A program made the translations under genes and the position numbers. The notes beneath the pieces were generated by a model. The model did no database searches. It worked only from the letters and a program-made list of their open reading frames with translations, and was not told the origin of the DNA. A DNA stretch of 64,000 bases from Brevundimonas subvibrioides. Lineage in GTDB: Bacteria > Pseudomonadota > Alphaproteobacteria > Caulobacterales > Caulobacteraceae. The stretch is taken from contig NCEB01000021.1 of the NCBI GenBank assembly GCA_002280475.1, positions 1-64,000 of the forward strand, in the 5' to 3' direction. Of the stretch, positions 25,401 to 50,282 are shown in pieces (position 1 is the first letter of the stretch; each line of letters starts with the position of its first letter).

Positions 25401-25415
25401 GGGAGCCATCGCACC

Positions 25416-28863: not shown

Positions 28864-28865
28864 CC

Positions 28866-32500: not shown

Positions 32501-33003
32501 GACACTCTCCGCTTCCGGTGATCACATGCACGGTGTGCGGGAATCAACAGTCGGGCAACGACAGTGAATTGCGGGGCTCCCGCCAGTTTTTTGCGGAGGA
32601 GCCGCCTGTTCCGCAGCGCGAAGACGCACTTGCTCCCGGTTGGGGGTCGCCCTAAAGCGCCCCGGTCGGGCGCCGTGAGATAGGCGCACAGCTTGAGCCG
32701 GGGCCTGTCAAAGCGACAGGGGCGTCGCTTTGAGCCGAAGCAGCGGGCCTCGCGATCGCAGAGGATTCCAACGCCCGACCCCTCCGGCTTGCACCGCGAT
32801 TCCGTTTGATTCATGCTGGTCTGGCCGACGCTTGCGTTGGTGGGGCCTGGAATCCCCTGTGCGATATCAAATCATCGACGGCGTCGCGCTTCCGCGCGGA
32901 TGCCCGTTCCCGACGCCCGACGGCGCGCGCCTGCGCACCTGTCCTGGGCTGTGTGGACGCGTCTGGGTTCCGGACCCTCTCGTCGAGAGGCCGGAGAACC
33001 GTG
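32501..33003. other. Gene-free stretch upstream of the FecI-type sigma factor
   Basis: Open frames in this 503-base stretch have no recognisable protein features and composition unlike their neighbours. It contains short inverted repeats (for example TGCGG at 32590 and CCGCA at 32609-32613) and must hold the promoters of the LuxR-like pseudogene and of the sigma factor. I see no clear -35/-10 pair and no RNA gene. Confidence 0.5.
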
Positions 33004-33492
33004 GTGACCGATACGAAGCAGCTAGGGATGGAGGCGCAGGACGGTATCAACCGTCTCTATCGGCGCTATGCCGCCTGGCTGGGTCGTCGCTTGCGCGCCC
33101 ACCTCGACGCCGATGCCGCAGCCGATGTCGTTCAGGAGACCTATATCCGCGCCGCGCCCTATGCCTTGGACGACATCCGCCACCCGAAGGCCTTTCTGCT
33201 CAAGATCGCGCTCAATCTGGTCCGTGATGAGAGCCGGAAAGAAGGCCGACGGCGGCGGGATCGGGCGTTTCAGCGACCGGCCGAAGCCGAGGCGGCTCCC
33301 CAGTTCGATCAGGTTCTGCTCGAGCAGGTGATCCGGTCCATGCCGCAACTCTACCGCGACGTCTTCGTCTTGAGCCGCTTTGGCGGTATGACCTATCCGG
33401 AGATCGCCCAGTCGTTCGGGATCAGCGTAAAAACGGTGGAATGGCGAATGTCCAGGGCGCTCGAGTACTGCGCGTCTCGGCTGGACTTGTAG
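33004..33492 (+). CDS. FecI-type ECF sigma factor
   Basis: A GTG start at 33004 is chosen because GGAGA lies six bases upstream; ATG 33028 is an alternative. The 162-residue protein has sigma region 2 (YRRYAAWLGRRLRAHL, DVVQETYIRA) and region 4 (MPQLYRDVFVLSRFGGMTYPEIAQSFGISVKTVEWRMSRAL). FecI-type factors are held by FecR and released by a signal from a TonB receptor. The order sigma, FecR, TonB receptor, isopeptidase is the import and sensing arm of proteobacterial lasso-peptide loci. Targets probably include the receptor and perhaps the biosynthetic operon. Confidence 0.9.
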   Translation: MTDTKQLGMEAQDGINRLYRRYAAWLGRRLRAHLDADAAADVVQETYIRAAPYALDDIRHPKAFLLKIALNLVRDESRKEGRRRRDRAFQRPAEAEAAPQFDQVLLEQVIRSMPQLYRDVFVLSRFGGMTYPEIAQSFGISVKTVEWRMSRALEYCASRLDL

Positions 33493-33501: not shown

Positions 33502-34488
33502 ATGACGATCGAGGCTGAAGCCGAAATCAGGCGCAAGGAGGCTGCGGAATGGTTCAGCAAGTTGAACCAGCGCCAGGTCACGACCGCCGACATCAGGGAC
33601 TTCAGCGACTGGCGCCGGGATCCTGAGAACGCCCGCGCCTTCAGTCGCCTTGAGGCGATGTGGGATGCGGCCGGCACGCTCGCGAAGAGCCCTGGGATGG
33701 CGGCGCTCACGGAGGACGCGACGAAACGGGCCAGCCAGCCCACGCCCAGCCGACGAAGGAGTCCTTCCGGCCGCCTGGTCCCGCTCGGAGCGGCGGGCGC
33801 GATCGCCCTAGCGCTGGCAGTGGGAAGCTGGTCGTGGTGGTCCGCCCAACGCCCGGACGTCTACGACACCGCCATCGGTGAGCAGCGTACGGTCCGGCTC
33901 GAGGACGGCTCACGCATCATTCTCGACACGGCCTCTCACGTCACGGTTCGCTTCACCGACGCCCGTCGCCTGGTCACGCTCGCCTCCGGACGCGCCATGT
34001 TCGAGGTCGAAGGCGACGCCGCGCGGCCTTTCCTCGTGCAGGCGGGTGACACCGAAGTCACCGCCGTCGGGACCCGGTTTGACGTTCGGCGATCGGGCTC
34101 GGGGGCGCGTGTCGTCCTGGTCGAAGGGCGTGTCGATGTCCACAAGCCCTCATCGACCGATGCGCAGTGGACCCTCGCGCCCGGCCAGGAAGTCACGACG
34201 TCCGCGCGGACGCCCCGGGTCGTTGCGGTCAATGTCCCGGCCGAGACCAGTTGGACGGTCGGACGGCTCACCTTCGAGAACACGCCGATCGCCGCGGCCG
34301 TGGCGGAGGTGAACCGCTACAGTTCCAAGCCGATAGAGCTTCGCGATCAACGCATCTCGTCGATCCGCGTCAGCGGCGTGTTCAACGCCGGCGACGTCGA
34401 CGGCTTCGTCGCCGCCCTGCGCGATCTCTATCACCTCGAGGCCGTAACCGCAGCCGACGGTCACGTGATCCTCTCCGCGCCGGCTTGA
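33502..34488 (+). CDS. FecR-family anti-sigma/sigma regulator
   Basis: The 328-residue protein has an N-terminal cytoplasmic DUF4880-like domain (RRKEAAEWFSKLNQ, FSDWRRDPENARAFSRLEAMW), one membrane helix (about residues 93-113, LGAAGAIALALAVGSWSWW) and a periplasmic FecR domain (VRLEDGSRIILDTASHVTVRF, AGDTEVTAVGTRFDVR) with a C-terminal STN-like part (PIAAAVAEVNRYSSKPIELRD). It receives the signal from the receptor STN domain and controls the adjacent sigma factor. It starts nine bases after the sigma gene. Confidence 0.92.
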   Translation: MTIEAEAEIRRKEAAEWFSKLNQRQVTTADIRDFSDWRRDPENARAFSRLEAMWDAAGTLAKSPGMAALTEDATKRASQPTPSRRRSPSGRLVPLGAAGAIALALAVGSWSWWSAQRPDVYDTAIGEQRTVRLEDGSRIILDTASHVTVRFTDARRLVTLASGRAMFEVEGDAARPFLVQAGDTEVTAVGTRFDVRRSGSGARVVLVEGRVDVHKPSSTDAQWTLAPGQEVTTSARTPRVVAVNVPAETSWTVGRLTFENTPIAAAVAEVNRYSSKPIELRDQRISSIRVSGVFNAGDVDGFVAALRDLYHLEAVTAADGHVILSAPA

Positions 34489-34579: not shown

Positions 34580-37531
34580 ATGGGCCACAGATTCACTTCA
34601 ACCGCGCTCGCCGCGCTCATGCTGGGTGTCGCGACGCCGGTCATCGCGCAATCGACCGCGGCCGTGCGGACGTTCAGCATCGGAGCCGGTCCGCTTGAGC
34701 GCAGCCTGCCGGTGTTCGCCCAGCAGAGCGGCCTTCAGATCCTCTATCCGAGCGCACTCGTCACCGGCCGCCAGGCTCGAGCCCTCACCGGCGACTACAC
34801 CCCGGAGGCCGCGCTCGCGGAGCTCCTGCGCGGGACCGGCCTGACCTATCGCCAGAGCCGTCCGACGGTCTTCGTGCTCGTTGATCCCTCGGCCCGCGCC
34901 GAAGTCGAACCGGAAGCGACGCAACTTGAGGAAGTCGTCGTCACGGGCACCTATCTGCGGGGGGCGGAGAGCCCGTCGCCGGTCACGGTGATCACCCAGG
35001 ACGACGTGGCGCGGCAGGGTCGCGCGACGGTCGCCGAGACGCTCGCCGCCTTGCCGCAGAACTTCACCGGAGCTGCCTATGAGGGCTCGGCGGGCACGGG
35101 GGCCGACCGCACAAGCCGCAACTCCGCCTATGCGACCGGGGTCAACCTGCGGGGTCTTGGGGCGGACGCGACCCTCGTTCTGGTCAACGGCCGGCGGATC
35201 GCCGGCACCGGCAGCGCCGGCGACTTCTCGGACATCTCCAATCTTCCCAGCAGCGCAATCGCCCGCGCGGACGTGTTGCTCGACGGCGCATCGGCCCTCT
35301 ACGGCGCGGACGCGGTCGGCGGCGTGGTCAACATCATCCTGAAATCCCGCTTTGACGGCGCCGAAAGCCTGGTGCGCGTCGGGGGCACGAGTGAAGGCGG
35401 GGCCGAGGAGACCCTCCTGTCCCACAGCGGCGGCTTCAACTGGTCCAGCGGCGGCCTCATCGCAGCCTATGAGTTCCATGACCGGGGCGAGTTGCGCGCC
35501 GCCGACCGTCGCGCGACCGCGAGCGCGGACTTGCGACCGCTGGGCGGCTCGGACTGGCGCTTCTTCTACGCCGCGCCGGGAAACCTCATGGCGTTCGATC
35601 CGGTCAGCGGATCCTACGAACCGACCTACGCCATCCCCCGCAGTCAGAACGGGGTGGGCCTCGCGCCGGGAGACTTTCGACCCGGCGAGGTCAACCTGAC
35701 CAACCAGATGGAAGGCCAGTGGAGCCTGCCCCACCAGCGCCGACACAGTGTGTTCGTCGCGGGCCGGCAGGACCTTCCGGGCGGCTTCAGTCTGGACGGC
35801 GACCTTCGCTACACCGATCGAACCTACAACCAGGACTCGGTGGCCGACATCGGCATCCTGTTCGTGACGCCGGACAATCCATTCTTCGTGCCGGTGGCGG
35901 GCGAGCCGTATCAGGAAATCGCCTATTCCTTCGTCAACGACCTGGGACCGAGTCGTGACGAAGGCTTCTCCCGCAGCATCGGCGGCGCGTTCGGGATCGA
36001 GGGCGAACTCGCCGGCTGGAACCTCGCGGCCTATCTGAGCGGCGGCCGCGAGACCACCGGCCTCACGGCCTCGAACCGGGTGCAGACGACCCATCTCGAC
36101 GAGGCCCTTGGCGCGACGCCCGATGATCCGTTGACCGCATTCAACCCGGCGGTCGACGGCTATTTCAACCCTTATGGCGACCCCGCCGCCCATGGCGCGG
36201 CTCTGTTGGCCTTCATCGGGTCCGGCTACCTTCGGTCCGAGAACATCAGCACGGTCGGCTCCTTCAACCTCAAGGCTGACAGCGTGCTCCTCGCTCTGCC
36301 GGGCGGCGACCTGCGCATGGCCGTGGGTATCGACTATCGCCAGGAGCGCTTCGAAACGTCCGGGGAGAACTTCATCTCCGGCGCAGCGCCGCGCATCGCG
36401 GCTTCGACGGCGTTCGAGCGTGATGTCTCGGCCGCCTTCGTTGAACTGCGCGCGCCGCTGGTGGGCCCCGGCAACGCCCGGCCCGGCCTCGAACGGCTGG
36501 AGCTGTCGCTCGCCGGTCGTATCGAGGACCATGAGGGGATCGGCCAGACCAGCAATCCCAAGGTCGGCGTCCTCTATAATCCAACGCCCGACCTGCTGCT
36601 GCGCGCCAGCTACGGGACCTCGTTCCGCGCCCCGTCGCTGAGGGAGTTGAACAGCGCCTACCGGCTCGGCCCGGTGTTTCTCGATCGCGCCGGCGCCAAT
36701 GTGATCAGCATCGTCCAGTACGGGGGCAACCCCGACCTGATCCCGGAGACGGCGGAGTCCTGGACCGCAGGTTTCGTCTGGACGCCTGCCGCCGCCGAAG
36801 GGTTGCGGATAGAGGCCGGCTGGTTTCGGACGACGTTCGAGGACCGGATCGCGACCCCCGTCGCGGAGAATCTGATCAACGCCCTGAACGACCCGACACT
36901 GGCGCCCTTCATCCGGTACGTGAGCCCCGGCTCCAATGCGGACGACCTAGCCTATGTCCAGTCCCTGCTCAGCCATCCGGGGAACTACAATCCGAACGTC
37001 TTCCCGGCGACCGCCTACGGCGCCGTGATCGACAACCGGTACGTCAACGCCTCGGCTGTCGAGGTCGAGGGGCTCGATCTTTCCACACGCTATCGCTTCA
37101 CCCTGGGGTCGGACGACATCTCGCTCGATGCGACCGTGACGCATCTCCTCACCAACGACCGGGCGGTCACCGCCACCTCCCCCACCGAGGACTTGCTGGG
37201 CGCACCGAACTTCCCGGCGCGCTGGCGAGGCCGCTTCAGCGGCCAGTGGATTCGCGGCCCGCTCACGCTCGGTGGCGCGCTCAATCACGTCAGCGGAGGA
37301 CGGGATCCGGTCAACGGTCACGGGATCGACGACTGGATCACTCTGGACGGCCAGGTCCGCTACGACATCGACAGCGGATGGGCCGAAAATCTTTCGCTCA
37401 CCCTCAACGTGCTGAACCTGACCAATGAGGAGCCGCCCTTCTACGATGCTCCGGCGGGGATCGGGTACGACGCCGCCAACACCAATGTGCTCGGCCGGCA
37501 GGTCTCGCTTCAGCTCGTCAAGCGCTGGTGA
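34580..37531 (+). CDS. TonB-dependent receptor with STN signalling domain
   Basis: The 983-residue protein has a signal peptide (residues 1-25), an STN domain (about 30-105, FSIGAGPLERSLPVFAQQSGLQILYPSALV), a plug (LEEVVVTGTYLRGAESPSPVTVITQDDVARQGR) and a long 22-strand-type barrel ending in VSLQLVKRW. The STN domain makes it a signal transducer to FecR as well as an importer. In lasso loci with isopeptidases, receptors of this sort are thought to take up the organism's own lasso peptide. Location between fecR and the isopeptidase gene supports that ligand; a siderophore is the alternative. Confidence 0.9.
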   Translation: MGHRFTSTALAALMLGVATPVIAQSTAAVRTFSIGAGPLERSLPVFAQQSGLQILYPSALVTGRQARALTGDYTPEAALAELLRGTGLTYRQSRPTVFVLVDPSARAEVEPEATQLEEVVVTGTYLRGAESPSPVTVITQDDVARQGRATVAETLAALPQNFTGAAYEGSAGTGADRTSRNSAYATGVNLRGLGADATLVLVNGRRIAGTGSAGDFSDISNLPSSAIARADVLLDGASALYGADAVGGVVNIILKSRFDGAESLVRVGGTSEGGAEETLLSHSGGFNWSSGGLIAAYEFHDRGELRAADRRATASADLRPLGGSDWRFFYAAPGNLMAFDPVSGSYEPTYAIPRSQNGVGLAPGDFRPGEVNLTNQMEGQWSLPHQRRHSVFVAGRQDLPGGFSLDGDLRYTDRTYNQDSVADIGILFVTPDNPFFVPVAGEPYQEIAYSFVNDLGPSRDEGFSRSIGGAFGIEGELAGWNLAAYLSGGRETTGLTASNRVQTTHLDEALGATPDDPLTAFNPAVDGYFNPYGDPAAHGAALLAFIGSGYLRSENISTVGSFNLKADSVLLALPGGDLRMAVGIDYRQERFETSGENFISGAAPRIAASTAFERDVSAAFVELRAPLVGPGNARPGLERLELSLAGRIEDHEGIGQTSNPKVGVLYNPTPDLLLRASYGTSFRAPSLRELNSAYRLGPVFLDRAGANVISIVQYGGNPDLIPETAESWTAGFVWTPAAAEGLRIEAGWFRTTFEDRIATPVAENLINALNDPTLAPFIRYVSPGSNADDLAYVQSLLSHPGNYNPNVFPATAYGAVIDNRYVNASAVEVEGLDLSTRYRFTLGSDDISLDATVTHLLTNDRAVTATSPTEDLLGAPNFPARWRGRFSGQWIRGPLTLGGALNHVSGGRDPVNGHGIDDWITLDGQVRYDIDSGWAENLSLTLNVLNLTNEEPPFYDAPAGIGYDAANTNVLGRQVSLQLVKRW

Positions 37532-37537: not shown

Positions 37538-39919
37538 ATGCGCATGGTCGTTGTGGCCCTCGCGGGCCTGCTTGCCGCGGCGTGCCCCTCGTCGGCCCGG
37601 TCGGACCCGCTCACGGTGGACGTCATTCTGGCCCTCAAGAGCTTCGGCCGGGTGGCGATCGACCCGTCCGGGGAGGTGGCGGTCTTCGAGGAACGGCGCG
37701 CCCGAAGCGACCTCCCTCGTCATGATCTGGAGGCCGAGGGCGCCATCCGGTACGCCCGGCTCTACCGCATCGACCTCGACGTCTCCGACCGCCCGCGTCC
37801 GCTCCTGGCGATGGAGGAGGACGCCGGCTATTCCATCGGCGCCTTTTCGCCGAGCGGCCGGCGCCTGGCCGTGTTTCGGCTCAGGAACGACGAATGGCGG
37901 TTGGGGCTCGTCGAGATCGCGACCGGGCGCGTGGTCTGGACCGAGGTGGCGCCGGACCTCGGCCTTTGGGGCCGGTCCCTCGAGTGGCTGACGGACGACG
38001 CCCTGGTCGTTTTGGGCATGCCTGACGGGGCGCTGCCCCCGCGACTGGCCGGCCCCCGCGCCGAGCAGGCGCGCCTGCTGGCGCTGAGGGCGGCCGCGAC
38101 GGCGGGGTCCGCGGCCGCGATCACGGTGGGTGAGGACGGCGCGCCGGAGGCCTTGTCGCCGCGACGTCTGTCGCGGATCGACGCCATCACCGGCGCGGCG
38201 GCCGCGATCGCCGACGGCCCGTTCCTCGACCTCGAAACCTCTCCGGACGGGCGATATGCCGCGCTTCTCCTGGACGGTCCGCTCCTGCCGCCTCCCTCCG
38301 CCGACACGGCGACCGAGGTGCGTCGCGCCCGGGGGCTGCAGATCGTCGACCTGATCTCCGGCTCCGCCGTACGGCCATCCGACGCCCGCAACATCTCGAC
38401 CAGCCTTCTGGTTTGGTCGCCGGCGTCCGACGCCCTTCTGGTGGCGGCAATCGACGAAGAGCCGGCCCGGCTCCTGACCATCGCCCCAGACGGCGCGACG
38501 CGGGACGTGACGCCTGCCGGGGCACGACCGACAACGCCGATCGATTTCCAAGGCATGGCGACAGCCGAGGGCGGCTGGTTGGGCGGAACTCCGATCTTCA
38601 AGGGCCGATCCGGATCCAGGGAGGGCTGGTTCTTCGCCGACGCCGACGCCTCGCCTCTGACAGGCCTGTCCCCGGACGCCCGGCTCCTCGCCGAAGGAGG
38701 GTCTGCGGTTCTGTTCAACAGCGGCGGTCACGTCGTGCGATTTGACGCCGACCACGGGCACGCAGATCTCGGCCCCGCCGCATCGGCCGCAAACCCCCGC
38801 GGTCCGTTCGGATTGCGGGCGCAGAGCGGTTCTCTGAAAGCCGCCTTCGCCGTGGTCGCGCGTGGCGACGGACGCCTGTGCCAGGTCTGGGTCGACCCTG
38901 ATGCCGGCTCCCGATGCGTCGCGGCGACGCCCGGAGCCGCGATCAGTTGGAGCGGGGGGATCAGCCTCGATCGGGGCGCCCTGGAAGATGATCCAAACGC
39001 TCTGCGCCTGCAACGCGGCCAACGCCGAGAGGTGGTCTGGCGGCTGAACTCCGAACTCGACCGGATCTCGGTCGCGGCCCCTCGGCGGATCGCCGGCGTC
39101 GGCGGCGCCGGCGGCTGGCTCTATCTGCCGTCGAACCCGACGGCGACACCGCCCGTGATCGTGGTGCCCTATCAGGGCGAGTCGTACCCCGCTCCGCCGT
39201 GGTGGATGCGGCGGGAGTCCACCAGCCTGTCCATGGCGCCCCAGCTGATGGCGGCGGCCGGCTACGCCATCCTCGTCCCGGACCTTCCGGCGACTCCGGA
39301 ACCGGCGGACGGCCTCGCCCATCGCATCCTGGCGGTCGTCGACGCCGCGGCGGCGGAGGGCCTGGTTGATGCGGAGCGGATCGGCTTGTGGGGCTGGAGC
39401 TTCGGCGCCTGGTCCGCGGTGATGAGCGCGGCGCAGTCTCCTCGCTTCGACGCCGTGGTGGCGTTGAACGGGCCAATGAATTTCTCGACCGTCATCGGAG
39501 ACGTGGGATCGACGCTGCGCCTCGACGGCGGGCATGCGCTCGCCGCGGCGGCGAGTGCGCGTTGGCTGGAATCCGGCCAGGCCGAGATGCGGGACGCCTA
39601 TTGGCGAGCGCCCGACCGGTATCGCCGCAATAGCCCGTTCGAGCAGGCGGACCGCATCGTCGCGCCGACGCTTCTCGTGGTGGGCGAGTACGATCTGATG
39701 CTCGGTCAGTCGGAGCAACTCTACGGCGCCCTGCACCGTCTGAACCGGCCCGTCGCCCTGACCCTCCTCATCGGCGAGGAACACGGCCTCAGGAGTCCGG
39801 GGAATATTCGGCTCTACTACGACCAGATCCGGAGCTGGTTCGACCGATACCTCATGGGGTCCGGCGGTCCAGCCGTTCCCGCCAGCGACGCACCCACGCC
39901 TCCGTCAGGGCCAGACTGA
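37538..39919 (+). CDS. Lasso peptide isopeptidase (AtxE-like, prolyl-oligopeptidase family)
   Basis: The 793-residue protein has a signal peptide (residues 1-22), a beta-propeller-like N-terminal half and an alpha/beta-hydrolase half. The catalytic set is visible: GLWGWSFGAWS with Ser621, GEYDLMLGQSEQ with Asp719 and GEEHGLRSPGN with His749. Isopeptidases of this family cut the macrolactam of lasso peptides and linearise them. Position directly after the TonB receptor and convergent with the lasso cyclase gene makes this identity likely over a general dipeptidyl peptidase. The last 68 bases overlap the end of the cyclase gene on the other strand. Confidence 0.85.
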   Translation: MRMVVVALAGLLAAACPSSARSDPLTVDVILALKSFGRVAIDPSGEVAVFEERRARSDLPRHDLEAEGAIRYARLYRIDLDVSDRPRPLLAMEEDAGYSIGAFSPSGRRLAVFRLRNDEWRLGLVEIATGRVVWTEVAPDLGLWGRSLEWLTDDALVVLGMPDGALPPRLAGPRAEQARLLALRAAATAGSAAAITVGEDGAPEALSPRRLSRIDAITGAAAAIADGPFLDLETSPDGRYAALLLDGPLLPPPSADTATEVRRARGLQIVDLISGSAVRPSDARNISTSLLVWSPASDALLVAAIDEEPARLLTIAPDGATRDVTPAGARPTTPIDFQGMATAEGGWLGGTPIFKGRSGSREGWFFADADASPLTGLSPDARLLAEGGSAVLFNSGGHVVRFDADHGHADLGPAASAANPRGPFGLRAQSGSLKAAFAVVARGDGRLCQVWVDPDAGSRCVAATPGAAISWSGGISLDRGALEDDPNALRLQRGQRREVVWRLNSELDRISVAAPRRIAGVGGAGGWLYLPSNPTATPPVIVVPYQGESYPAPPWWMRRESTSLSMAPQLMAAAGYAILVPDLPATPEPADGLAHRILAVVDAAAAEGLVDAERIGLWGWSFGAWSAVMSAAQSPRFDAVVALNGPMNFSTVIGDVGSTLRLDGGHALAAAASARWLESGQAEMRDAYWRAPDRYRRNSPFEQADRIVAPTLLVVGEYDLMLGQSEQLYGALHRLNRPVALTLLIGEEHGLRSPGNIRLYYDQIRSWFDRYLMGSGGPAVPASDAPTPPSGPD

Positions 39920-41567
39920 GCAGTTGCGAATGCCCGCCGCGCCACAGCAGGGCGTCCCGGGTGAGGCGGTCCTCCAGGCCCGGATCGATCAACCCCGCCT
40001 CCGCCAGGGCGCCGCCGAGCAGATAGTCGCGCAGGAAAGCCAGGTGCGCGGCGACCGCGCCGCCATAGTAGGCGCCCAGTTCGCCTTTCGAGCGGCGGTC
40101 AAGGATCGATGATGGAAGGACGTCCGCGAAGGCGGCGCGCGCCGCAGCCCGGTCGCGCCCGCCCCAAGTCAGATCGACCGTCGAAATGGCCAACCCCGCC
40201 TCCATCACAGGCTGGCTCAGCAACGGATTGACGCAGGGACCAAGCCGACTGCGGAGCGCCGGCCCCTGAAAGGTCTGGCAGAACGCCAAGGCCGACATCT
40301 GGATCGCCTTGGCTGGCGGGACGTTGGCCAGATCGTCCAGCCAGGGATGGTCCCAAACGGCGCGATGGCGGACTTCGTCGCGCCAGTCCCGGGCGAGGGC
40401 CGTCGGCCACACGGAGCGCCGCAGCCATCGCGCGAGCCGATGCAGGATCGCTGCGCGCGCCCGGCCTCGACGCTCCCAAATCTCATCCACGGCGATCAGG
40501 AGGCTCGGCATCTGGAAGAAGACGGCGTCGCCTCCCTGCCCTGTCAGCGAGCCCCAGGCGCCCATCGCCTCGATCCGGTCGGCGATGTCGTCGTTGTAGT
40601 CGGGATCGATGTCGTTGGCCGCCGGCCTGAAGGTTTCGGCGCAGGCCGCCAGACGGGCGGCGTCGAGCCTGAGGCCGTCGCGGCGGACTTCCGTCAGCGT
40701 GAAGACGTGCCGCCCCGCGACCGCCCGGGCGTAGGCCCGTTCGTCGCCCTCCGGCTGATCGACGTAGTGGTTGACCCAGGCGGCCACGCTCCGGCGCTGA
40801 TCGGCGGTCAGGACGCCCGCCACGATGGCGGAGTCCAGTCCGCCGCTGACTTCGGCGATCCAGCGCCTGTCGCCCGCCAGCGCCCTCACCGACCCTTCCA
40901 CCGCCCCCCTAAGGTCCGGAGGCGGCCGCGAGGCGCGGTCTCGATAGAGGTCCGCAGGCCGCCAGATCTGATGCGCCCGGTTGACGCCCTCCCCGATGAC
41001 CCGCAGCTCGCCGCCGGCGACGGCCTCCAATCCAGTCAGGGCCAGCCGATGACGATGCTCGCCGGGGCGGTCCACCAAGGCAGCGACCGCGCCCCAATCC
41101 AACGCGATCCCGTCGGGCAGCCAAGGGTCGATGACGGCCGCAGCGCTCGTCGAGATCAGGGTCACGCCGGCCTTGCGCCAGACGACACAGTCCAGGGCGC
41201 CGGACGGGTCGCGGAGCACCGCGACGTCGCCTTCGACCCGCCGGACCAACAGGTATCGCCCCCAATAGCCCGCGCAAATGGCGCGTGCATGCGCCGCATT
41301 GAGACGCCGGCATCCCAGGGCGCCCCGGGCTCGCGGCGACAGCGCATGGCCGTCGCCGTCGTAGACCTCGCCAATCAGCACGCCGTGCCCGTCCAGCCCC
41401 CGCACGGCCTCCAGCCGTCCACCGGTAGGAGCGAACACCTGGATGAAGGGGTCGTGCGACTTGCGCGACCAGCCGGCCCGGCTCAGGCGCTGTCGAACGG
41501 GCGCCACCAAGGCGTCGAGCGCGGCCGGCGTGTCACCCACGAGAATGATTGCGCAGTCCGCCGCCAC
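39852..41567 (-). CDS. Lasso peptide cyclase (protein C, asparagine-synthetase-like)
   Basis: The 571-residue protein has a degenerate glutamine-amidotransferase-like N-terminal domain without an N-terminal catalytic Cys and an asparagine-synthetase domain with the ATP motif IAEVSGGLDSAIVAG (SGGLDS at 241-246) and LTGQGGDAVFFQ. Protein C activates the side chain of Glu or Asp at ring position 7-9 with ATP and closes the macrolactam onto the new N-terminus. It starts one base after the B gene ends, so B and C are translationally coupled. The convergent overlap with the isopeptidase gene is unusual. Confidence 0.92.
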   Translation of the reverse strand: MAADCAIILVGDTPAALDALVAPVRQRLSRAGWSRKSHDPFIQVFAPTGGRLEAVRGLDGHGVLIGEVYDGDGHALSPRARGALGCRRLNAAHARAICAGYWGRYLLVRRVEGDVAVLRDPSGALDCVVWRKAGVTLISTSAAAVIDPWLPDGIALDWGAVAALVDRPGEHRHRLALTGLEAVAGGELRVIGEGVNRAHQIWRPADLYRDRASRPPPDLRGAVEGSVRALAGDRRWIAEVSGGLDSAIVAGVLTADQRRSVAAWVNHYVDQPEGDERAYARAVAGRHVFTLTEVRRDGLRLDAARLAACAETFRPAANDIDPDYNDDIADRIEAMGAWGSLTGQGGDAVFFQMPSLLIAVDEIWERRGRARAAILHRLARWLRRSVWPTALARDWRDEVRHRAVWDHPWLDDLANVPPAKAIQMSALAFCQTFQGPALRSRLGPCVNPLLSQPVMEAGLAISTVDLTWGGRDRAAARAAFADVLPSSILDRRSKGELGAYYGGAVAAHLAFLRDYLLGGALAEAGLIDPGLEDRLTRDALLWRGGHSQLLSLALTEAWVRRWRERLDRRTP

Positions 41568-41568: not shown

Positions 41569-42234
41569 TCAGATCACCAGGATCGGCCGATAGACGGTTA
41601 GGGTTTCCGGCGCCTCGCTGACGCACTGGTCGCCACTCTGCAGCCAGCAATGGGCGAGAAAGGGGAAGGTGCGGACCCCGAACACCCAGTCCGCGTCCAG
41701 ATCCGCCGCATTGACGAAGCGCAGCAGCAGCTCTGCTTGGAGAAGACAGGCGCCGGTCCAGGGGGCCAGCGGGAGCAACTGGCGGAACACCTCGACCCGC
41801 GCCGCGAGCGCCTCGGGATCCGAACGGCGGCCGCCACGCCGGGCGTATCGGCGGCTGAGCTCCAGAAGCGTCGGCCGGCGCCGCACCGCGTCGATCCAAA
41901 TGAAGGCGAACGTGGCCACGTCCCGCAGCGTCGGCCGGATCGGCGGCTGAGCGGGCAGGCGGGCAGACGGCAGGGCCGGCGGCGGGATTCGATCGTCCGG
42001 CGCCGACGTGGGGTGCAGCAGCTCTTCGGCCGCAAGGCGAAGAAGCTCCTCCATCGACCCCCGAACTTGCCGACCGTCGATCCGGAGATCGCCGCACTCC
42101 GGCAAGCAAAGATAGTCGTCTTCAGCGAGATCGAGCAGGACCAGATCGGCGCCGACGCGGACCGCGTGTATCCCCTCCCCGAGCCACCCGCAGTCAGCAT
42201 CGGGCGCCCCATCGGCGAGAAGCGCGTCAGTCAT
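41569..42234 (-). CDS. Lasso peptide B protein (RRE plus leader peptidase domain)
   Basis: The start at 42234 (ribosome site ggggtg) is preferred, giving 221 residues; an upstream ATG at 42366 would add a 44-residue disordered extension. Residues 20-75 (GIHAVRVGADLVLLDLAEDDYLCLP) resemble the PqqD-like leader-binding RRE, and residues 105-221 are the transglutaminase-like McjB peptidase with probable Cys163 (WTGACLLQAELLLRF), His195 (FLAHCWLQSG) and Asp202. The usual HAWVE motif is replaced by HCWLQ. The enzyme removes the leader after the conserved Thr-x of the precursor, releasing the Ala1 amine for cyclisation. Confidence 0.9.
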   Translation of the reverse strand: MTDALLADGAPDADCGWLGEGIHAVRVGADLVLLDLAEDDYLCLPECGDLRIDGRQVRGSMEELLRLAAEELLHPTSAPDDRIPPPALPSARLPAQPPIRPTLRDVATFAFIWIDAVRRRPTLLELSRRYARRGGRRSDPEALAARVEVFRQLLPLAPWTGACLLQAELLLRFVNAADLDADWVFGVRTFPFLAHCWLQSGDQCVSEAPETLTVYRPILVI

Positions 42235-42416
42235 CCTCACCCCGCGGGCCGGTTGAGATCGAGGGTCGGTTTGAGGTCCAGATGTCGGCCTCGCCCGCCT
42301 CGCGTGCAGTTCCGCGCCATCCCGAGGCGCAGAAGCCGATGGATCGTGGACTTTGACATCAGTCATCTCCCTGTTTGCGGCGAAAGGCGGCCGAGCCGCC
42401 CTCCAAGACGCCCGGC

Positions 42417-42441
42417 GGGGCCGTCCGAAGCGGGCGGCCCC
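42417..42441 (-). terminator. GC hairpin directly after lasso precursor 2
   Basis: GGGGCCG (42417-42423) pairs with CGGCCCC (42435-42441), with an inner three-pair stem CCG/CGG. It begins seven bases after the precursor stop on the minus strand. A stem here can stop part of the transcription or protect the precursor mRNA 3' end, so more precursor than processing enzyme is made. Confidence 0.5.
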
Positions 42442-42447
42442 TTGGAG

Positions 42448-42573
42448 TCATTCCGGCGGCATCGTCCAGTGGCGGGCCGGGTTCAGTTCGGTGAACGGGC
42501 CCATCAGGATCGCCCGGGTCAGCCGACGGGCGGCCCCCAGACGCAGGACGCGCGTCTTGGTTTGGATCTTCAT
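42448..42573 (-). CDS. Lasso peptide precursor 2
   Basis: A 41-residue gene too short for ordinary gene calling, with ribosome site ggagag nine bases before ATG 42573. The leader is MKIQTKTRVLRLGAARRLTR, with Thr at the second-last position as required by B-type peptidases. The predicted core has ring segment AILMGPFTE (Ala1 joined to Glu9) and tail LNPARHWTMPPE. An Ala1/Glu9 nine-residue ring is known from caulonodin-type lasso peptides. His15 and Trp16 of the core (HW) could serve as plug residues. It shares 41-residue length, leader motifs and ELNP with precursor 1 and is clearly its tandem paralogue. Confidence 0.85.
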   Translation of the reverse strand: MKIQTKTRVLRLGAARRLTRAILMGPFTELNPARHWTMPPE

Positions 42574-42640
42574 GGATCCTCTCCTGTGTCAGGACTGGCC
42601 TCTGGTTGCGGCGTCCGGGGCGAGGCCGGGCCCGGACGTC

Positions 42641-42660
42641 CGGGCCGCCGAAGCGGCCCG
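42641..42660 (-). terminator. UUCG-capped hairpin directly after lasso precursor 1
   Basis: On the minus strand CGGGCCGC-TTCG-GCGGCCCG forms a perfect eight-pair stem with a C(UUCG)G tetraloop, an extra-stable RNA loop. It starts five bases after the precursor stop. It is most likely an mRNA stabiliser or partial terminator between precursor 1 and the rest of the operon. Confidence 0.55.
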
Positions 42661-42665
42661 TCCGG

Positions 42666-42791
42666 TCATTCGCTGGGCGGAATGGTGTACTTCAGCACCG
42701 GATTCAGCTCGTCGAACTCGCCGCGCGAGACCGCGCGGGTCAGGGTGCGGGCGGACCCGAGGCGCACGAGGCGCGAGGTTTTCTTGGTCAT
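42666..42791 (-). CDS. Lasso peptide precursor 1
   Basis: The 41-residue gene starts at ATG 42791 after a good ribosome site (aggagac); a longer frame to 42854 is not needed. The leader is MTKKTSRLVRLGSARTLTR with the Thr-Arg end. The predicted core has ring segment AVSRGEFDE (Ala1 joined to Glu9; Asp8 is a less likely acceptor because only Glu9 is conserved in the second precursor) and tail LNPVLKYTIPPSE. Lys15/Tyr16 are candidate plug residues. It lies 69 bases after the GntR gene and is followed by a UUCG hairpin. Confidence 0.87.
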   Translation of the reverse strand: MTKKTSRLVRLGSARTLTRAVSRGEFDELNPVLKYTIPPSE

Positions 42792-42860
42792 GGTCGTCTC
42801 CTGTTTTGAAGGTCGACAAAACGTCGACGACGAACCATCAGCGCCGGAAAGCAAATCGAT

Positions 42861-43439
42861 TCAAACTATATTCCGCGTATACTTTGACTGATCTGGATCG
42901 ATACGCCTGACGCGGGACGCGAGACCCGTCGCGGCGATCCGCCAGCGCGCGTAATAGGCCTCGACGTCGCTCGCCGGCTCGGGACCGGCCGCCGCTTCCG
43001 TCGGGCCGTTCAGGCGTCTGAGCGGCGCCAGGCGACGGCGCACGCGAACGAGGCTTTCGATCAAAGGCTGGTTGTCACAGGCGCCGACCAGGTCGTCGAT
43101 CCACGCCTCGACGGACTCATCCGAACCGTCTCGGGGTTGAGTCGCCGGAGCATAGAGCGCTGCAAGCCGGACATGGGCGGCCTCGAGGTCCAGCAAGCCC
43201 AGAACGTCCTCCAGGGGAGCCGCGCGGGTGAAATAACCGAGACCGCGGCGATCCTCGACAAGGCCTTCGCCGCACAGTCGGGACAGGGCTTCCCGCACCG
43301 GGCTGGTGCTCAGGCCGAGCGAAGCGGCGATGTCCACCACGGAGAGGTGCTGTCCGGGAGCCAGGCCGTCCTCGAGCGCGGCGCGCAGGCTGGCGAGCGC
43401 CATGCCGAAGGGATCGCGCTGCCTCACGGCCGCCTCCAA
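42861..43439 (-). CDS. GntR-family transcriptional regulator
   Basis: The 192-residue protein has a GntR winged helix (about residues 12-75: LRAALEDGLAPGQHLSVVDIAASLGLSTSPVREALSRLCGEGLVEDRR) and a short, mostly helical C-terminal domain of the FCD type that is reduced in length. It is the first gene of the minus-strand run that continues with the two lasso precursors, B and C, so it may control them and itself. The effector is unknown; a peptide fragment or degradation product of the lasso peptide would be an attractive but untested ligand. Confidence 0.85.
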   Translation of the reverse strand: MEAAVRQRDPFGMALASLRAALEDGLAPGQHLSVVDIAASLGLSTSPVREALSRLCGEGLVEDRRGLGYFTRAAPLEDVLGLLDLEAAHVRLAALYAPATQPRDGSDESVEAWIDDLVGACDNQPLIESLVRVRRRLAPLRRLNGPTEAAAGPEPASDVEAYYARWRIAATGLASRVRRIDPDQSKYTRNIV

Positions 43440-44596: not shown

Positions 44597-45217
44597 ATGC
44601 TCGACCTCGCGTTCGTTCTCGCCCTCTCGCAAAGCTGCGCGCCCTCGGTGGCGCCCCAGACCCTTGCGGCGATCGCGCACGTCGAGAGCCGGTTCGATCC
44701 CTTGGCGATCGGCGTCAATCGCAACGGCGCCCGCCCCGCTCGAGCGCGTAATGCGACGGAGGCCGCGACGACGGCCCGTCGGCTCCTGAGCCGCGGCGCC
44801 AACCTCGATCTCGGGCTGGCCCAGATCAACAGCGACAACCTCGGCTGGCTGGGCCTGACGGTCGAAGACACCTTTGATCCCTGCCTCAACCTGCGGGCCG
44901 CGGCGACGGTCCTTCGCGCGGGCTACCGGCTCGCCGGCGAGACTCCGGCGCATCGTCAGTCCGCCCTGCGCGTCGCCCTGTCCCGCTACAACACCGGGGA
45001 CGCCCGGCGGGGATTCCGCAACGGCTACGTCGCCAAGGTCGAGCAGGCTGCGGTCGACTTGAACCTGGCCGCCCCGCTAGCGGCGACCGCCGTCGAACCG
45101 TCCGACGCGCGCCTTCCAGAACCGTCGCTCCCGAACGCCCCGCCTGCCGCCTGGGACGTGTTCGCGCGCGGGCCCGTGCGGGTCGCCTTTTCCACTTCCG
45201 TCGACCGGAGCCACTGA
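44597..45217 (+). CDS. virB1: VirB1-like lytic transglycosylase
   Basis: The 206-residue protein has a short hydrophobic N-terminus and an SLT domain with IAHVESRFDPLAIGVN (catalytic Glu), LGLAQINSDNLGWLGL and ALSRYNTGD. VirB1 opens peptidoglycan locally so that the conjugation channel can be built. It opens the virB operon and its stop overlaps virB2 by one base (TGATG). Confidence 0.9.
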   Translation: MLDLAFVLALSQSCAPSVAPQTLAAIAHVESRFDPLAIGVNRNGARPARARNATEAATTARRLLSRGANLDLGLAQINSDNLGWLGLTVEDTFDPCLNLRAAATVLRAGYRLAGETPAHRQSALRVALSRYNTGDARRGFRNGYVAKVEQAAVDLNLAAPLAATAVEPSDARLPEPSLPNAPPAAWDVFARGPVRVAFSTSVDRSH

Positions 45218-45528
45218 TGTTTCGTCCCCTGACCCTTTCACCGTTCCCGCGTCACGCCGGTGCTGCGGCCTGCATCGCGCTGGCCGCCACCTGTCTGTCG
45301 GCGCAGCCGGCGCTCGCCTCGGCCAACGTCGAAGGCCTGCTCCAGAACGTCGTCGACATGCTCACGGGCAATACGGCCCGCCTGCTTGCCGTGCTGGCGG
45401 TCGTGGTCGTCGGCATCCTGTGGATGTTCGGCCTGTTCGACCTGCGCCGGGCCGCGATCGTCGTGCTCGGCATCGTCGTGGTCTTCGGCGCGGCCGAGAT
45501 CGTCAATCTGATCACGGGCGGCGCCTGA
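45217..45528 (+). CDS. virB2: VirB2-like pilin
   Basis: A 103-residue protein with a long signal sequence (cleavage near QPALASA) and two helices (RLLAVLAVVVVGILWMFGLF and AAIVVLGIVVVFGAAEIVNLI), the build of VirB2/TrbC pilins. It forms the conjugative pilus. Position between virB1 and virB3 agrees. Confidence 0.88.
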   Translation: MFRPLTLSPFPRHAGAAACIALAATCLSAQPALASANVEGLLQNVVDMLTGNTARLLAVLAVVVVGILWMFGLFDLRRAAIVVLGIVVVFGAAEIVNLITGGA

Positions 45529-45710
45529 TGACGGCCGCCGCGCCCTGGCTGTGGATCGGGTCGGCGTCGGCCTTTCTCGCCCTCTGTCTGATGCTCGGCC
45601 TGAAGCTTATCTCGCCCAAGCGGTTCGCCCAGATCCTCGCCGGTCTCGGCTCGGGGCTGACCATCGGCCTGGCCCTGTCGCGCCTGTCCGCGGGAGGCCC
45701 CCATGGCTGA
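45528..45710 (+). CDS. Small two-helix membrane protein in the virB operon
   Basis: A 60-residue protein starting in an ATGA overlap with virB2, with helices WLWIGSASAFLALCLMLGL and FAQILAGLGSGLTIGLALS. It overlaps virB3 by eight bases. I know no VirB homologue; it sits where standard VirB operons go straight from B2 to B3. It may be a second pilin-like or a channel accessory protein. Confidence 0.65.
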   Translation: MTAAAPWLWIGSASAFLALCLMLGLKLISPKRFAQILAGLGSGLTIGLALSRLSAGGPHG

Positions 45711-46038
45711 CGAACGCCTGACCGAGGATCCGCTGTTCCTGGCCTGCACGCGGCCGGCGATGATCCTGGGCGTGCCCATGGAGGCGATGGGCGTCAACGT
45801 CATCGTGTCGGGCGTCGTCTTCCTCGTCGGCGGCAGCCTGCTCTATCTGCTCGTCGCCCCGGCCCTGCACCTGGTGTTCCGGGCGATCTGCCGGGCCGAC
45901 CACAACGCCTTCCGGCTGCTCTTCGTCTATGTCGACACCAAGGGCCGGTCGCGCAATACGGCGCTCTGGGGCGGGAGCTCGGCGTCGCCCCTCCCCCTGG
46001 TCCGCCGCTATCGTCTGGCGGAGCTGTCCCGTGGCTGA
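45703..46038 (+). CDS. virB3: VirB3-like inner-membrane protein
   Basis: The 111-residue protein has the VirB3/TrbD pattern: LTEDPLFLACTRPAMILGVP, then two helices (MGVNVIVSGVVFLVGGSLLY) and FRAICRADHNAFRLLFVYVDTK. It is needed for pilus assembly with VirB4, whose GTG start lies inside its last codons. Confidence 0.9.
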   Translation: MADERLTEDPLFLACTRPAMILGVPMEAMGVNVIVSGVVFLVGGSLLYLLVAPALHLVFRAICRADHNAFRLLFVYVDTKGRSRNTALWGGSSASPLPLVRRYRLAELSRG

Positions 46039-48406
46039 GGGCGGAGTTGCTCCGGCGCGGCTGCGGCGCGAGGCCGACGCCCGGCCGCACCTGCCCTACG
46101 CCCGTCACGTCTCGGACCATGTGGTGGCGCTCGACAGCGGCGCCCTGATGATGGTGTTCCAGATCGACGGCGCCAGCTTCGAGACCGCCGACGCCCGGGA
46201 CCTCAACGACTGGCACGTCAAGCTCAACCAGGCCTGGCGCAATCTCGCCGACGACCGTCTGGCGGTCTGGCACCATGTGGTGCGACGCCCGGTCGAGCTG
46301 GAGCGCTCGGCCGGCTACCGCTCGGCCTTCGCCGGGGAGCTCGGCGCCCTTTACGACGACCGTGTCGCGGGACGGCGGCTCTGGATCAATGAGCTGTTTG
46401 TCACCCTCGTCCTGCATCCGGGTCGGGACGCCGGCGACCGCGTCGCGGCTTTGGCGAAACGCCTGAAGGCGGCGCGGCGCAACGACGCCGAGGTCGAGTT
46501 CGCCCATATCCAGAGGATCGAGGAGGCCGGGCGCGATCTGGTCCAGTACCTCGGGCGCTATGCGCCGCGCCGTCTGGGTCTCTACGAGCGTGCTGGCCTG
46601 TGGTTCTCAGAACCGATGGAGGTCATGCGGCTGGTCCTGACCGGGCGCCGGTCGTCGGTCCCGATCGTGTTCGGCCACCTCGGTTCGGCGGTCTACACCG
46701 TGCGCGCTATCTTCGGACGCGAGACCCTCGAGCTGCGCGACGCCGCCGAGGCGCGCTACGCCGGCGTCCTGGCCATCAAGGAATACCCGGCCACGACGCG
46801 GCCCGGTCTGTGGGACGAGCTGCTGAGCGTCCGCTTCGGCTTCGTGATCAGCCAGTCCTTCGCCTTCCTGTCCAAGGCCTCGGCCCGCGCGGTGATGGAG
46901 CGCAAGCAGAACCAGATGGTCTCGGCGCGGGACCGCGCGGCCTCGCAGATCACCGGCCTGTCGGACGCGCTCGACGACCTCGTCAGCAACCGCTTCGTCA
47001 TGGGCGAGCACCAGGCCTCGATCCTCGTGCATGGCGACACCCCGTCGGCGCTGGCCGATCACCTGTCCAAGGCCCGCGCCATCCTCGCGGACTCCGGCCT
47101 CGTCGTGGCGCGCGAGGATCTGGGCCTGGAAGCGGCGTTCTGGTCCCAGTTCCCCGGGGCCTTCGCCCGCCGCACCCGGCCGGCCGCGATCACCTCGCGC
47201 AATTTCGCGGCCCTGGCGCCCTTCCATGCCCATCCGGTGGGCAAGGCGCGCGGCAACCACTGGGGCGACGCGGTCGCCGTGCTGCGCACCACGGCCGGCT
47301 CGCCCTTCTGGTTCAACTTCCACGTCGGCGATCTCGGCCACACCTTCATCTGCGGGCCTTCGGGGTCGGGCAAGACCGTGGTCCAGAATTTCATGCTGGC
47401 GCAGCTGGAGCGGTTCGACGCCCAGCAGCTCTTCATCGACAAAGACCGGGGCGCCGAGATCTTCGTGCGCGCCTGCGGCGGGACCTATCTCGCCCTGCGC
47501 AACGGCGAACCGACCGGCTTCGCCCCGTTCAAGGCCCTCGCCCCCAGCCCCGCCAACCGCGCGTTCCTCGTCCGCCTGGTCCGGACCCTCGTCGCGCGGC
47601 CGGACCAAACCCTGACGGTGCCCCAGGCCCGCGCCATCGATCAGGGCGTGGCCGCGCTGGAGGCCCTGCCGCGCGAACGGCGATCCATCGCCGCCCTGCG
47701 CAGCCTGCTCGGCCAGGGCGATGCCGGCGGCGTGGGCGCGCGGCTGGAGCGCTGGCAGCGCGGCGGCCCGCTTGGCTGGGTGCTCGACAATGACGAGGAC
47801 GCCCTCAGCCTGGAGGCCCGCTTCGCCGGTTTCGACATCACCCAGGTGCTCGACCATGACGAGGTCCGTACGCCGGCGATGTTGTATCTGTTCCATCGCA
47901 TCGCCGAGCGGGTCGACGGCCGTCGCCTGGTGCTCGACATCGACGAGTTCTGGAAGGTGCTGGGCGACCCGGCCTTCACGGAACTGGCCCAGGACGGGCT
48001 CAAGACCTGGCGCAAGCAGAACGCCCTGATGGTGTTCGGCACCCAGTCCCCTGCCGACGCCCTGCGCTCCCCGATCGCCCACGCCATCCTCGAACAGTGC
48101 GCGACCAAGATCTTCCTGCCCAACGCCCACGGCCAGGCGCGCGACTACATCGACGGCTTCGGCCTCACCCAGGAGGAGTTCCGACTGGTGCGCGAGGTCC
48201 TGACCCCGGAGTCGCACCGTTTCCTGGTCAAGCAGGGCCACGACAGCGTGGTCGTGGAACTGGACCTGAGCGGCATGGACGACGCCCTGTCGGTCCTGTC
48301 CGGCCGCACCGAAACCACCGCCCTGCTCGACCGCCTCCGCGCCGAGGTCGGCGACGACTACGCGCTGTGGCGCGATCCCTTCCATGACCAGAGGAGGTTC
48401 CTGTGA
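46031..48406 (+). CDS. virB4: VirB4-like conjugation ATPase
   Basis: The start is GTG 46031, eight bases inside virB3. The 791-residue protein has the CagE/TrbE N-terminal domain (LPYARHVSDHVVALDSGALMMVFQ) and a C-terminal ATPase with Walker A GPSGSGKTVVQNF, Walker B LVLDIDEFWKVL and TQSPADALRSP. It powers pilus formation and substrate transfer at the inner membrane. Confidence 0.95.
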   Translation: MAEGGVAPARLRREADARPHLPYARHVSDHVVALDSGALMMVFQIDGASFETADARDLNDWHVKLNQAWRNLADDRLAVWHHVVRRPVELERSAGYRSAFAGELGALYDDRVAGRRLWINELFVTLVLHPGRDAGDRVAALAKRLKAARRNDAEVEFAHIQRIEEAGRDLVQYLGRYAPRRLGLYERAGLWFSEPMEVMRLVLTGRRSSVPIVFGHLGSAVYTVRAIFGRETLELRDAAEARYAGVLAIKEYPATTRPGLWDELLSVRFGFVISQSFAFLSKASARAVMERKQNQMVSARDRAASQITGLSDALDDLVSNRFVMGEHQASILVHGDTPSALADHLSKARAILADSGLVVAREDLGLEAAFWSQFPGAFARRTRPAAITSRNFAALAPFHAHPVGKARGNHWGDAVAVLRTTAGSPFWFNFHVGDLGHTFICGPSGSGKTVVQNFMLAQLERFDAQQLFIDKDRGAEIFVRACGGTYLALRNGEPTGFAPFKALAPSPANRAFLVRLVRTLVARPDQTLTVPQARAIDQGVAALEALPRERRSIAALRSLLGQGDAGGVGARLERWQRGGPLGWVLDNDEDALSLEARFAGFDITQVLDHDEVRTPAMLYLFHRIAERVDGRRLVLDIDEFWKVLGDPAFTELAQDGLKTWRKQNALMVFGTQSPADALRSPIAHAILEQCATKIFLPNAHGQARDYIDGFGLTQEEFRLVREVLTPESHRFLVKQGHDSVVVELDLSGMDDALSVLSGRTETTALLDRLRAEVGDDYALWRDPFHDQRRFL

Positions 48407-49128
48407 GAGCCCGCATTCCCTTCGCCGCCGCCGCCGCCCTCGTCCTCGCCTGCGCGCCGGCCGTCCAGGCGCAGCAGATTGTCCACGACCCCCGGGCCCT
48501 GGCCCAGATGGTCGAGGAGGCCCGCACCACCCTTGAGCAGCTGAGAGCGCTGCAGACCCAGATCGAGCAGGGCCAGCAGCTCTTCGACAGCCTGAACGAT
48601 CTGTCCGGCGTCAACGCCCTGGCCGGCGAGCTCGGCCTGCCGGCGGTGCGCAATCCACTGCCGGACATGCGCGCCTTGCGCGCGGCGGCCGACGGCGATC
48701 TGTCCGCGCTCGGCGATCTGGCCGACCGGGCCGACGCCATCCGCCGCGACACCCGGCTCTACACGCCGCCGGCGGGCGATCCGGGCTCGGCGGAGGCCTA
48801 TTATCGCGACAGTCTCGAGCGCGCCGGCGCGCGGACCGCGCGGGATCTCGCCATCGGCGAAGCCGTCGGCGGCGCGGCGGATCGCCGCCTGCAGGGTTTG
48901 GAGACGCTGCGCTCCGCCCTCGACACCGCGCCCAACGCCCGCGCCGTCATGGACCTGGAAGCCCGTCTCGCGGCCGAACAGGCCCTGATCCAGAACGAGC
49001 AGGTTCGGCTGCAAGGTCTCGCCCTGACCCAGGCGGCCGAGGCGCGCCTCGAGGAGCAGCGCGCCCGGGAACGGGCCGAGGCCGCCCGGGCGGCCCGCAT
49101 GGACGTCTACGAAAGGGCGTTCCGGTGA
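48403..49128 (+). CDS. virB5: VirB5/TrbJ-like minor pilin protein
   Basis: GTG start with a strong site AGGAGG. The 241-residue protein has a signal peptide (cleaved near PAVQAQ) and long coiled helices (LAQMVEEARTTLEQLRALQTQIEQG, later LEARLAAEQALIQNEQVRLQGL), as in TrbJ/VirB5. It is a pilus-tip or adhesion component in the periplasm. The GTGA overlap with virB4 shows coupling. Confidence 0.88.
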   Translation: MRARIPFAAAAALVLACAPAVQAQQIVHDPRALAQMVEEARTTLEQLRALQTQIEQGQQLFDSLNDLSGVNALAGELGLPAVRNPLPDMRALRAAADGDLSALGDLADRADAIRRDTRLYTPPAGDPGSAEAYYRDSLERAGARTARDLAIGEAVGGAADRRLQGLETLRSALDTAPNARAVMDLEARLAAEQALIQNEQVRLQGLALTQAAEARLEEQRARERAEAARAARMDVYERAFR

Positions 49129-49349: not shown

Positions 49350-49360
49350 GGAGCCCGACG

Positions 49361-50281: not shown

Positions 50282-50282
50282 C

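Follow-up and report, generated by a model that had tools for sequence, protein, structure and literature searches.

Two predicted lasso peptide precursors of Brevundimonas subvibrioides as counterparts of caulonodins VI and VII, beside a probable isopeptidase and a receptor with a signalling domain

The window, a 64,000-nucleotide (64 kb) stretch of Brevundimonas subvibrioides DNA, carries two short minus-strand genes, A1 and A2, directly upstream of lasso B and C genes. Together with their neighbors they form a predicted lasso peptide cluster with the following features.

42861..43439, minus strand: GntR-family regulator (PF00392), syntenic and immediately upstream of A1; start codon uncertain
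42811..42834, minus strand: operator-like GTCGAC-N5-GTCGAC between the GntR gene and A1, a candidate GntR site
42666..42791, minus strand: precursor gene A1; leader MTKKTSRLVRLGSARTLTR, core AVSRGEFDE-LNPVLKYTIPPSE, predicted ring Ala1-Glu9
42641..42660, minus strand: intergenic hairpin after A1, CGGGCCGC-TTCG-GCGGCCCG
42448..42573, minus strand: precursor gene A2; leader MKIQTKTRVLRLGAARRLTR, core AILMGPFTE-LNPARHWTMPPE, predicted ring Ala1-Glu9
42417..42441, minus strand: intergenic hairpin after A2, similar in near relatives by eye
42237..42359, minus strand: A3, a precursor-like ORF of 40 codons; leader MSKSTIHRLLRLGMARNCTR, core GGRGRHLD-LKPTLDLNRPAG, with Gly1 and an acid at 8
41569..42234, minus strand: B, a fused RRE-like leader-binding part (assigned from position and sequence only) and cysteine protease; ATG at 42234
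39852..41567, minus strand: C, asparagine-synthetase-like putative lasso cyclase with an SGGLDS motif; GTG start at 41567
37538..39919, plus strand: S9 serine peptidase, a probable lasso isopeptidase; N-terminus signal-peptide-like by eye
34580..37531, plus strand: TonB-dependent receptor with an STN signalling domain (Pfam matches)
33502..34488, plus strand: FecR-like anti-sigma factor (domain matches)
32806..33492, plus strand: FecI-like ECF sigma factor (domain matches)

A1 runs from an ATG at 42791 to a stop ending at 42666, and A2 from an ATG at 42573 to a stop ending at 42448. Each has 41 codons, with AGGAG placed 6 nt (A1) or 7 nt (A2) 5′ of the ATG. The cores, AVSRGEFDELNPVLKYTIPPSE for A1 and AILMGPFTELNPARHWTMPPE for A2, contain Glu9 and lack Cys, and both leaders terminate in LTR, with Thr at leader position -2. 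This threonine is invariant across a 15-row precursor alignment, and a role for it in lasso precursors is treated in passages of PMC7549694. The original prediction had described two 41-codon minus-strand genes with good ribosome sites, LTR leaders and Ala-initial cores, and its coordinates and translations are confirmed. Its inventory is sound for A1 and A2 but overlooked A3, as well as a further lasso cluster elsewhere in the genome, on a different contig.

The window was scanned for ORFs of 30-60 aa in which GxA[RK]x[LMC]T[RQ] is followed by 7 or 8 residues and then [DE]. The scan returned A1 (plus one internal start of A1), A2 and A3, and there were 0 matches in 60 dinucleotide-preserving shuffles of the 64 kb. 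Because the pattern was written after the ORFs had been seen (C was permitted on account of A3), this control shows rarity rather than prediction. Both precursors fall below every NCBIfam and Pfam cutoff searched. Comparison with curated lasso precursor models yielded no assignment: against NF033521 (lasso_leader_L3) A1 scores 12.4 bits for a cutoff of 19 and A2 has no match, and only 3 of 15 aligned precursors match this model at E ≤ 1. In our judgement, curated lasso precursor models cover part of the class only.

B matches NF033537 (lasso B2) at 64.5 bits, above the cutoff of 33, and also PF13471. The McjB protease triad is Cys-His-Asp. Cys163 and His195 of B are invariant in all eight aligned proteins. 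Twelve positions beyond this His the window has Glu, and L015, L016 and L034 have Gln. Asp occurs there only in the distant L097 and L098, with Glu or Gln in the other six; Asp is what the Caulobacter-type locus and the second cluster, both described below, carry at this position. A structure model of B (pLDDT 74.2), a protein class for which an RRE and a transglutaminase-like fold are expected, matched nothing in the PDB at E ≤ 0.001, with only weak TbiB1 and cysteine-protease matches. C exceeds the PF00733 cutoff, and its hits to curated lasso cyclase models stay under their cutoffs (NF033561, 86.3 of 300 bits; NF033535, 15.6 of 525 bits); by homology and context, we file it as a putative asparagine-synthetase-like cyclase.

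Caulonodins VI and VII are reportedly known from Caulobacter sp. K31 (through Zimmermann, in 2014). From what holds for the family in general, their ring is expected to span residues 1-9. A Caulobacter-type genome (G269, genus g13) encodes the precursor pair MTKTKTRLIRFGSAKRLTR-AGTGVLLPETNQIKRYDPA and MTSPKYRLIRLGSAKSLTR-SGIGVLFPEPNMVRRWD. The first core, AGTGVLLPETNQIKRYDPA, stands after LTR and is identical to the caulonodin VI sequence given in Table 1 of PMC12427821, and the second differs at 2 positions from caulonodin VII (SGIGDVFPEPNMVRRWD in a table of PMC12427821); on these grounds we take the genome to be Caulobacter. Its locus has XRE-like and GntR matches, then A-A-B-C, S9 and receptor, the same gene order as the window, along with a FecR-like ORF read by eye. 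The receptor appears as two overlapping frames, through either a sequence error or a broken gene, and there is no T4SS match on the 12 kb contig.

A1, A2 and the two caulonodins align without gaps and match at positions 1, 9, 11, 15 and 16 (Ala/Ser1, Glu9, Asn11, a basic residue at 15 and Tyr/Trp16). Position 16 is Tyr in A1 and caulonodin VI and Trp in A2 and caulonodin VII. Given this register and the shared positions, A1 is the counterpart of caulonodin VI and A2 that of caulonodin VII. The loci are also alike in their LTR leader ends, gene order and two precursors per B/C pair. They differ in that A1 and A2 have longer tails (cores of 21-22 residues versus 17-19), Gly5 and Phe7 in the ring, and a PP(S)E end; between the loci, B is ~38% and C ~35% identical.

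The comparison upholds cleavage between LTR and Ala and Ala1-Glu9 rings of the caulonodin type, both claimed originally, as the homologous precursor carries the exact caulonodin VI core after LTR. The alternative cut before Gly5, raised at the same time, is disfavored: it would leave a 5-residue ring, and the caulonodin VI junction is LTR-Ala. That A1 and A2 are lasso precursors cleaved and cyclized in this way is well supported by sequence homology. The contrary idea that they are ordinary small proteins or chance ORFs, to which the shortfall against every curated family cutoff lends itself, is scarcely credible beside the empty shuffles, the conserved Thr-2 and leader motif, the intact gene pair beside B/C in most related loci and the homology to the exact caulonodin VI precursor.

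The choice of acid acceptor was examined in a core set drawn from the window and all loci, consisting of ORFs led by a Shine-Dalgarno sequence, 30-60 codons long, containing GxA[RK]x[LMC]T[RQ] and having cores of 14-28 residues; ORFs that lacked such a ribosome site, or whose cores were shorter or longer, were excluded, uncounted. An acid was no selection criterion, yet all 54 distinct cores have one at position 9 (47 cores) or 8 (seven: five A3-type and two from L061). Loci entered the set through their resemblance to C or to an entire precursor, and close relatives among them are dependent evidence. Acid frequency is 0.87 at position 9 and at most 0.39 at any other position; the Asp1 and Caulobacter core groups have little in common beyond the leader.

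A1 itself carries both D8 and E9. Closure at Asp8, giving an 8-residue ring like that predicted for A3-type precursors, is therefore conceivable, D8 being adjacent to E9 and an acid at 8 replacing that at 9 in the seven cores above. In other A1-type cores, however, position 8 is A, L, V, I or still D while position 9 is always E, and caulonodin VI, in the same register, has P8-E9. We consider an Asp8 ring very improbable and favor Glu9, the acceptor named at the outset.

The suggestion that the two peptides form a distinct subfamily is not supported in that form, since E9 and N11 are common to caulonodins VI and VII and E-L-N is found in nearly all A1/A2-type cores (one has E-M-N). With E-L-N spread across the lineage, the proline of ELNP and the PP(S/T)E end mark a clade rather than a subfamily. 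Relaxed specificity of the B/C pair, also proposed, is plausible, but the caulosegnins offer a precedent for several products per B/C pair. Three caulosegnins with 8- and 9-residue rings come from one enzyme set, according to passages of PMC13352647. Caulosegnins I-III of Caulobacter segnis resemble the present system in combining several precursors and mixed 8- and 9-residue rings with one enzyme set, and differ from A1/A2 in their Gly1 cores and other sequences (table in PMC12427821).

A3 sits between A2 and B and has the same build as A1 and A2. The window copy retains Thr-2 and D8, and from its sequence it may still give a product. Across the four closest copies (window, L005, L004 and L018) A3 has a pN/pS of 1.92; in the same four loci A2 has 0.19, and A1 has 0.74 on very few changes (3 distinct sequences). 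Thr-2 has become Met in two of the four A3 copies and residue 1 is Arg in one. A3 is absent from the A2-B gap in L006, L008, L009 and L011, and looks intact in L015, L016 and L032 (GKGGEFVE, GADGEFVE). Based on the pN/pS value, the two losses of Thr-2 and the Arg1 copy, A3 is probably the decaying remnant of a precursor whose core began with Gly1 and closed an 8-residue ring, although the value may also reflect diversifying selection. A third functional product is unlikely, given no sign of purifying selection among the window copy and the three copies closest to it.

How widespread is the pair? Relatives of C occur in 15 records, from Brevundimonas lenta, vesicularis, albigilva, aurantiaca, huaxiensis and variabilis, another strain, and metagenome bins; near-duplicates are among them (e.g., L011/L012, L013/L014 and the MAGs L006/L010/L017). 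A1 and A2 are both intact in 13 of the 15. In L014 (B. aurantiaca) A2 is interrupted by an internal TGA, and in L007 (B. albigilva) other DNA takes the place of A1, A2 and the 5′ end of B. All loci but L007 (14 of 15) have GntR, matches to both precursors, and the T4SS side. The receptor is likewise found in 14, and the contig of L018 ends before its position.

At E ≤ 0.001 the precursor profile matches 71 of 390 family genomes. Below E 1e-12 its matches fall in 20 of the genus's 131 genomes and in two from other genera; the remaining 49 genomes have weaker matches, part of which were inspected, and these include other lasso precursors. Near-identical clusters in genomes G242 and G324 were considered as horizontal transfer to other genera; they sit on contigs of 550020 and 114104 nt, the same lengths as two MAG records (L017 and L009), and are not counted as transfer because misbinned Brevundimonas contigs are an equally likely source.

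Within the ELNP clade, core pN/pS is 0.12 for A1 (9 distinct sequences) and 0.03 for A2 (11 distinct sequences), compared with leader values of 1.05, which rests on few changes, and 0.46, respectively. These figures are sums over equal-length pairs with no correction for kinship. The core, which is the future product, is the constrained part of both precursors, and the leaders drift. Over all clades core values are 0.75 (A1) and 0.58 (A2); since cores differ more at that scale, the constraint is lineage-wise.

On the other side of the cluster, the FecI, FecR, receptor and S9 genes lie on the plus strand, convergent with C. Aligned over 790 columns, the window S9 protein and its counterpart in the caulonodin VI locus share 33% identity. 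Among NCBIfam models the window protein is matched best by that of the AtxE2 isopeptidase, NF033523, at 50.2 bits far below the cutoff of 400, and all 6 aligned S9 proteins, that of the caulonodin VI locus included, match this model at E ≤ 0.001. S621 (in GWSFG), D719 and H749, which we take to be the Ser-Asp-His triad of S9 peptidases, are invariant in the six. Sequence-profile searches of the PDB placed AtxE2 (E 1.2e-7) below many other S9 enzymes, and a fold search with a structure model (pLDDT 66.8) returned general S9 enzymes first and the sphingopyxin isopeptidase SpI-IsoP 14th. The protein is thus best called isopeptidase-like only, a probable assignment from sequence. In the MAG locus L004 the S9 gene (7652-10030, minus strand) has a stop at residue 790 of 793, which is probably harmless.

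No ABC transporter family was detected among 28 window proteins scanned with Pfam. Passages of PMC7549694 state that most proteobacterial lasso clusters without an ABC transporter have an isopeptidase, and that a D (transporter) gene is a sign of possible antibacterial activity. Lasso isopeptidases act on threaded peptides only (PMC13352647), and an isopeptidase and a TonB-dependent receptor adjoin A-B-C in astexin/benenodin-type clusters (passages of PMC11006600, where a siderophore-like role is also said to have been proposed). The present cluster resembles the astexin/benenodin type in these respects and differs in core sequence, as astexins and benenodins have Gly1 and Asp at 8 or 9 (table in PMC12427821). 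From its gene content, the cluster has the usual alphaproteobacterial layout of isopeptidase-like S9 protein and TonB receptor, here with FecI/FecR. Upstream of FecI, positions 21754-32224 of the window hold genes for a cbb3-type oxidase and for a heavy-metal P-type ATPase.

In an alignment of 17 Brevundimonas-type loci the first GTCGAC of the operator-like element is present in 16 and the second in 12, as judged by eye. The hairpin after A1 is not exceptional (81-nt stretch, z -1.53; 13 of 200 shuffles as stable), and for that after A2 (71-nt stretch) z is -2.90, with 1 of 200 shuffles as stable. These hairpins may set the ratio of A to B/C; astexin-1 production strategies listed in a table of PMC7549694 include hairpin removal. 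A promoter and terminator scan of 42200-43000 found none.

Taken together, we consider it highly probable (roughly 0.87) that A1 and A2 are class II (Cys-free) lasso precursors, corresponding in Brevundimonas to caulonodins VI and VII and matured by B and C. B would bind the leader motif R[LV][VL]RLGxARxLTR and cut after LTR, and C would then close the ring by bonding the Ala1 amino group with the Glu9 side chain, the tail being threaded through it. The products so predicted would have monoisotopic masses of 2442.243 Da (A1) and 2389.171 Da (A2). From the caulonodin VI/VII register, residues 15-16 (K-Y in A1, H-W in A2) would act as the plug holding the tail in place, a proposal weakened by the lack of a basic residue 15 in the A1-type cores of L015, L016 and L034 (Leu or Glu). 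The released peptides would be retaken by the dedicated receptor, sensed via FecR/FecI and opened by the S9 enzyme. We favor uptake or signalling because no ABC exporter was found and an isopeptidase-like S9 enzyme, a signalling TonB receptor and FecI/FecR lie alongside. From gene content and literature, we give such a role, as opposed to that of an ordinary antibiotic, about even odds.

The opposite flank of the cluster bears on this question, and carries one further set of genes.

44597-55892 and 58370-61044: genes of a conjugative-type T4SS (from VirB1-like to VirD4), followed by those of an AbiEii-family nucleotidyltransferase and of a relaxase

Pfam matches cover VirB1-like, VirB6, VirB8, VirB9, VirB10, VirD4 and the relaxase, and three further window genes we presume to be VirB2, VirB3 and VirB4. 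VirB1-VirB4 adjoin the lasso cluster in 14 of 15 loci. Comparison of the window with L015 (B. huaxiensis) reveals XRE, VirB2, VirB3 and VirB4 that are 92-96% identical, with LuxR at 80% and VirB1 at 85%, whereas GntR, A1, A2, B, C, S9 and the receptor are only 53-75% identical. For L013 the order is reversed relative to L015, with VirB4 at 80% and C at 72%. In trees of 14 loci, L015 groups with the window and its allies (support 0.995) when the flanking genes VirB2, VirB3, VirB4 and XRE are used, and with L016 (support 1.000) when the cassette genes GntR, B, C, S9 and receptor are used. This conflict points to apparent replacement of the whole lasso cassette of L015 by recombination.

So, are the peptides weapons? 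Cassette exchange beside a T4SS could reflect competition between strains, the peptides being antibacterial and the receptor serving uptake by rivals or tolerance. The conflicting trees of L015, the adjacency of T4SS genes in 14 of 15 loci and the VirD4 and relaxase genes of the window are compatible with this, as is antibacterial MccJ25, which enters cells via the siderophore receptor FhuA (passages of PMC11006600). The scanned window proteins, however, include no ABC transporter, the D-type sign of possible antibacterial activity mentioned above, and near-frozen cores would be more in keeping with a matched receptor than with an arms race. We regard the weapon explanation as unlikely.

A bolder and still doubtful possibility is that the peptide pair is self-recognised, its cores locked to their own receptor and isopeptidase, and that exchange of the cassette beside the T4SS generates species chemotypes. 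If so, AVSRGEFDE.../AILMGPFTE... and AVDEGDYAE.../AVDEGDFAE... would be alternative chemotypes comparable to matched siderophore-receptor types. The core types are not strictly alternative, as genome G125 has both the AVSRGEFDE type (L028) and, on a separate contig, a third type, AGVLGEFIE (L052).

The second lasso cluster of the same genome lies at ~9234-11524 of contig C17 (G000:C17; L003 / L098). Its precursor joins leader MTTPLIRLVSLGSARALTR to core DLIGGAYTELNVFDSREPAGV, with a predicted Asp1-Glu9 ring, and flanking ORFs read by eye as VirD4- and VirB11-like. Asp1 is an unusual lasso N-terminus; it is found in 21 of the 54 distinct cores. Among the entries examined in the review table of PMC12427821 there is no Asp1 core.

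Brevunsin, from Brevundimonas diminuta, is the one Brevundimonas lasso peptide met in those parts of the open PMC literature that were searched. In the locus L086 / L099 (G012) the core after LTR is DGMGEEFIEGLVRDSLYPPAG, and the review table prints brevunsin as GDMGEEVIEGLVRDSLYPPAG, 3 differences in 21 from this Asp1-type core of the same genus. Two letters may have been transposed in the table, which would make brevunsin an Asp1 lasso peptide, or the strains may differ; the pattern EEVIEGLV occurs in 0 of 131 genomes of the genus. Brevunsin is akin to the Asp1 type of the second cluster and unlike the A1/A2 type, and on sequence it was rejected as a close relative of A1 and A2. Of six peptide strings (four from A1/A2 and two of the brevunsin type), none occurred in the open PMC papers searched.

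As predicted from their precursors, the A1 and A2 peptides are new relatives of caulonodins VI and VII, not a new kind of molecule. Chemically, they would extend the caulonodin VI/VII type to longer tails. The A1/A2 system bears on the role of proteobacterial lasso peptides that are accompanied by isopeptidases and TonB receptors, with near-invariant cores and drifting leaders across Brevundimonas species, its own receptor, FecI/FecR and a peptidase. The natural variants, in which one or both precursors are lost or, in one case, the cassette has apparently been swapped, provide clean comparisons for an uptake or signalling function.
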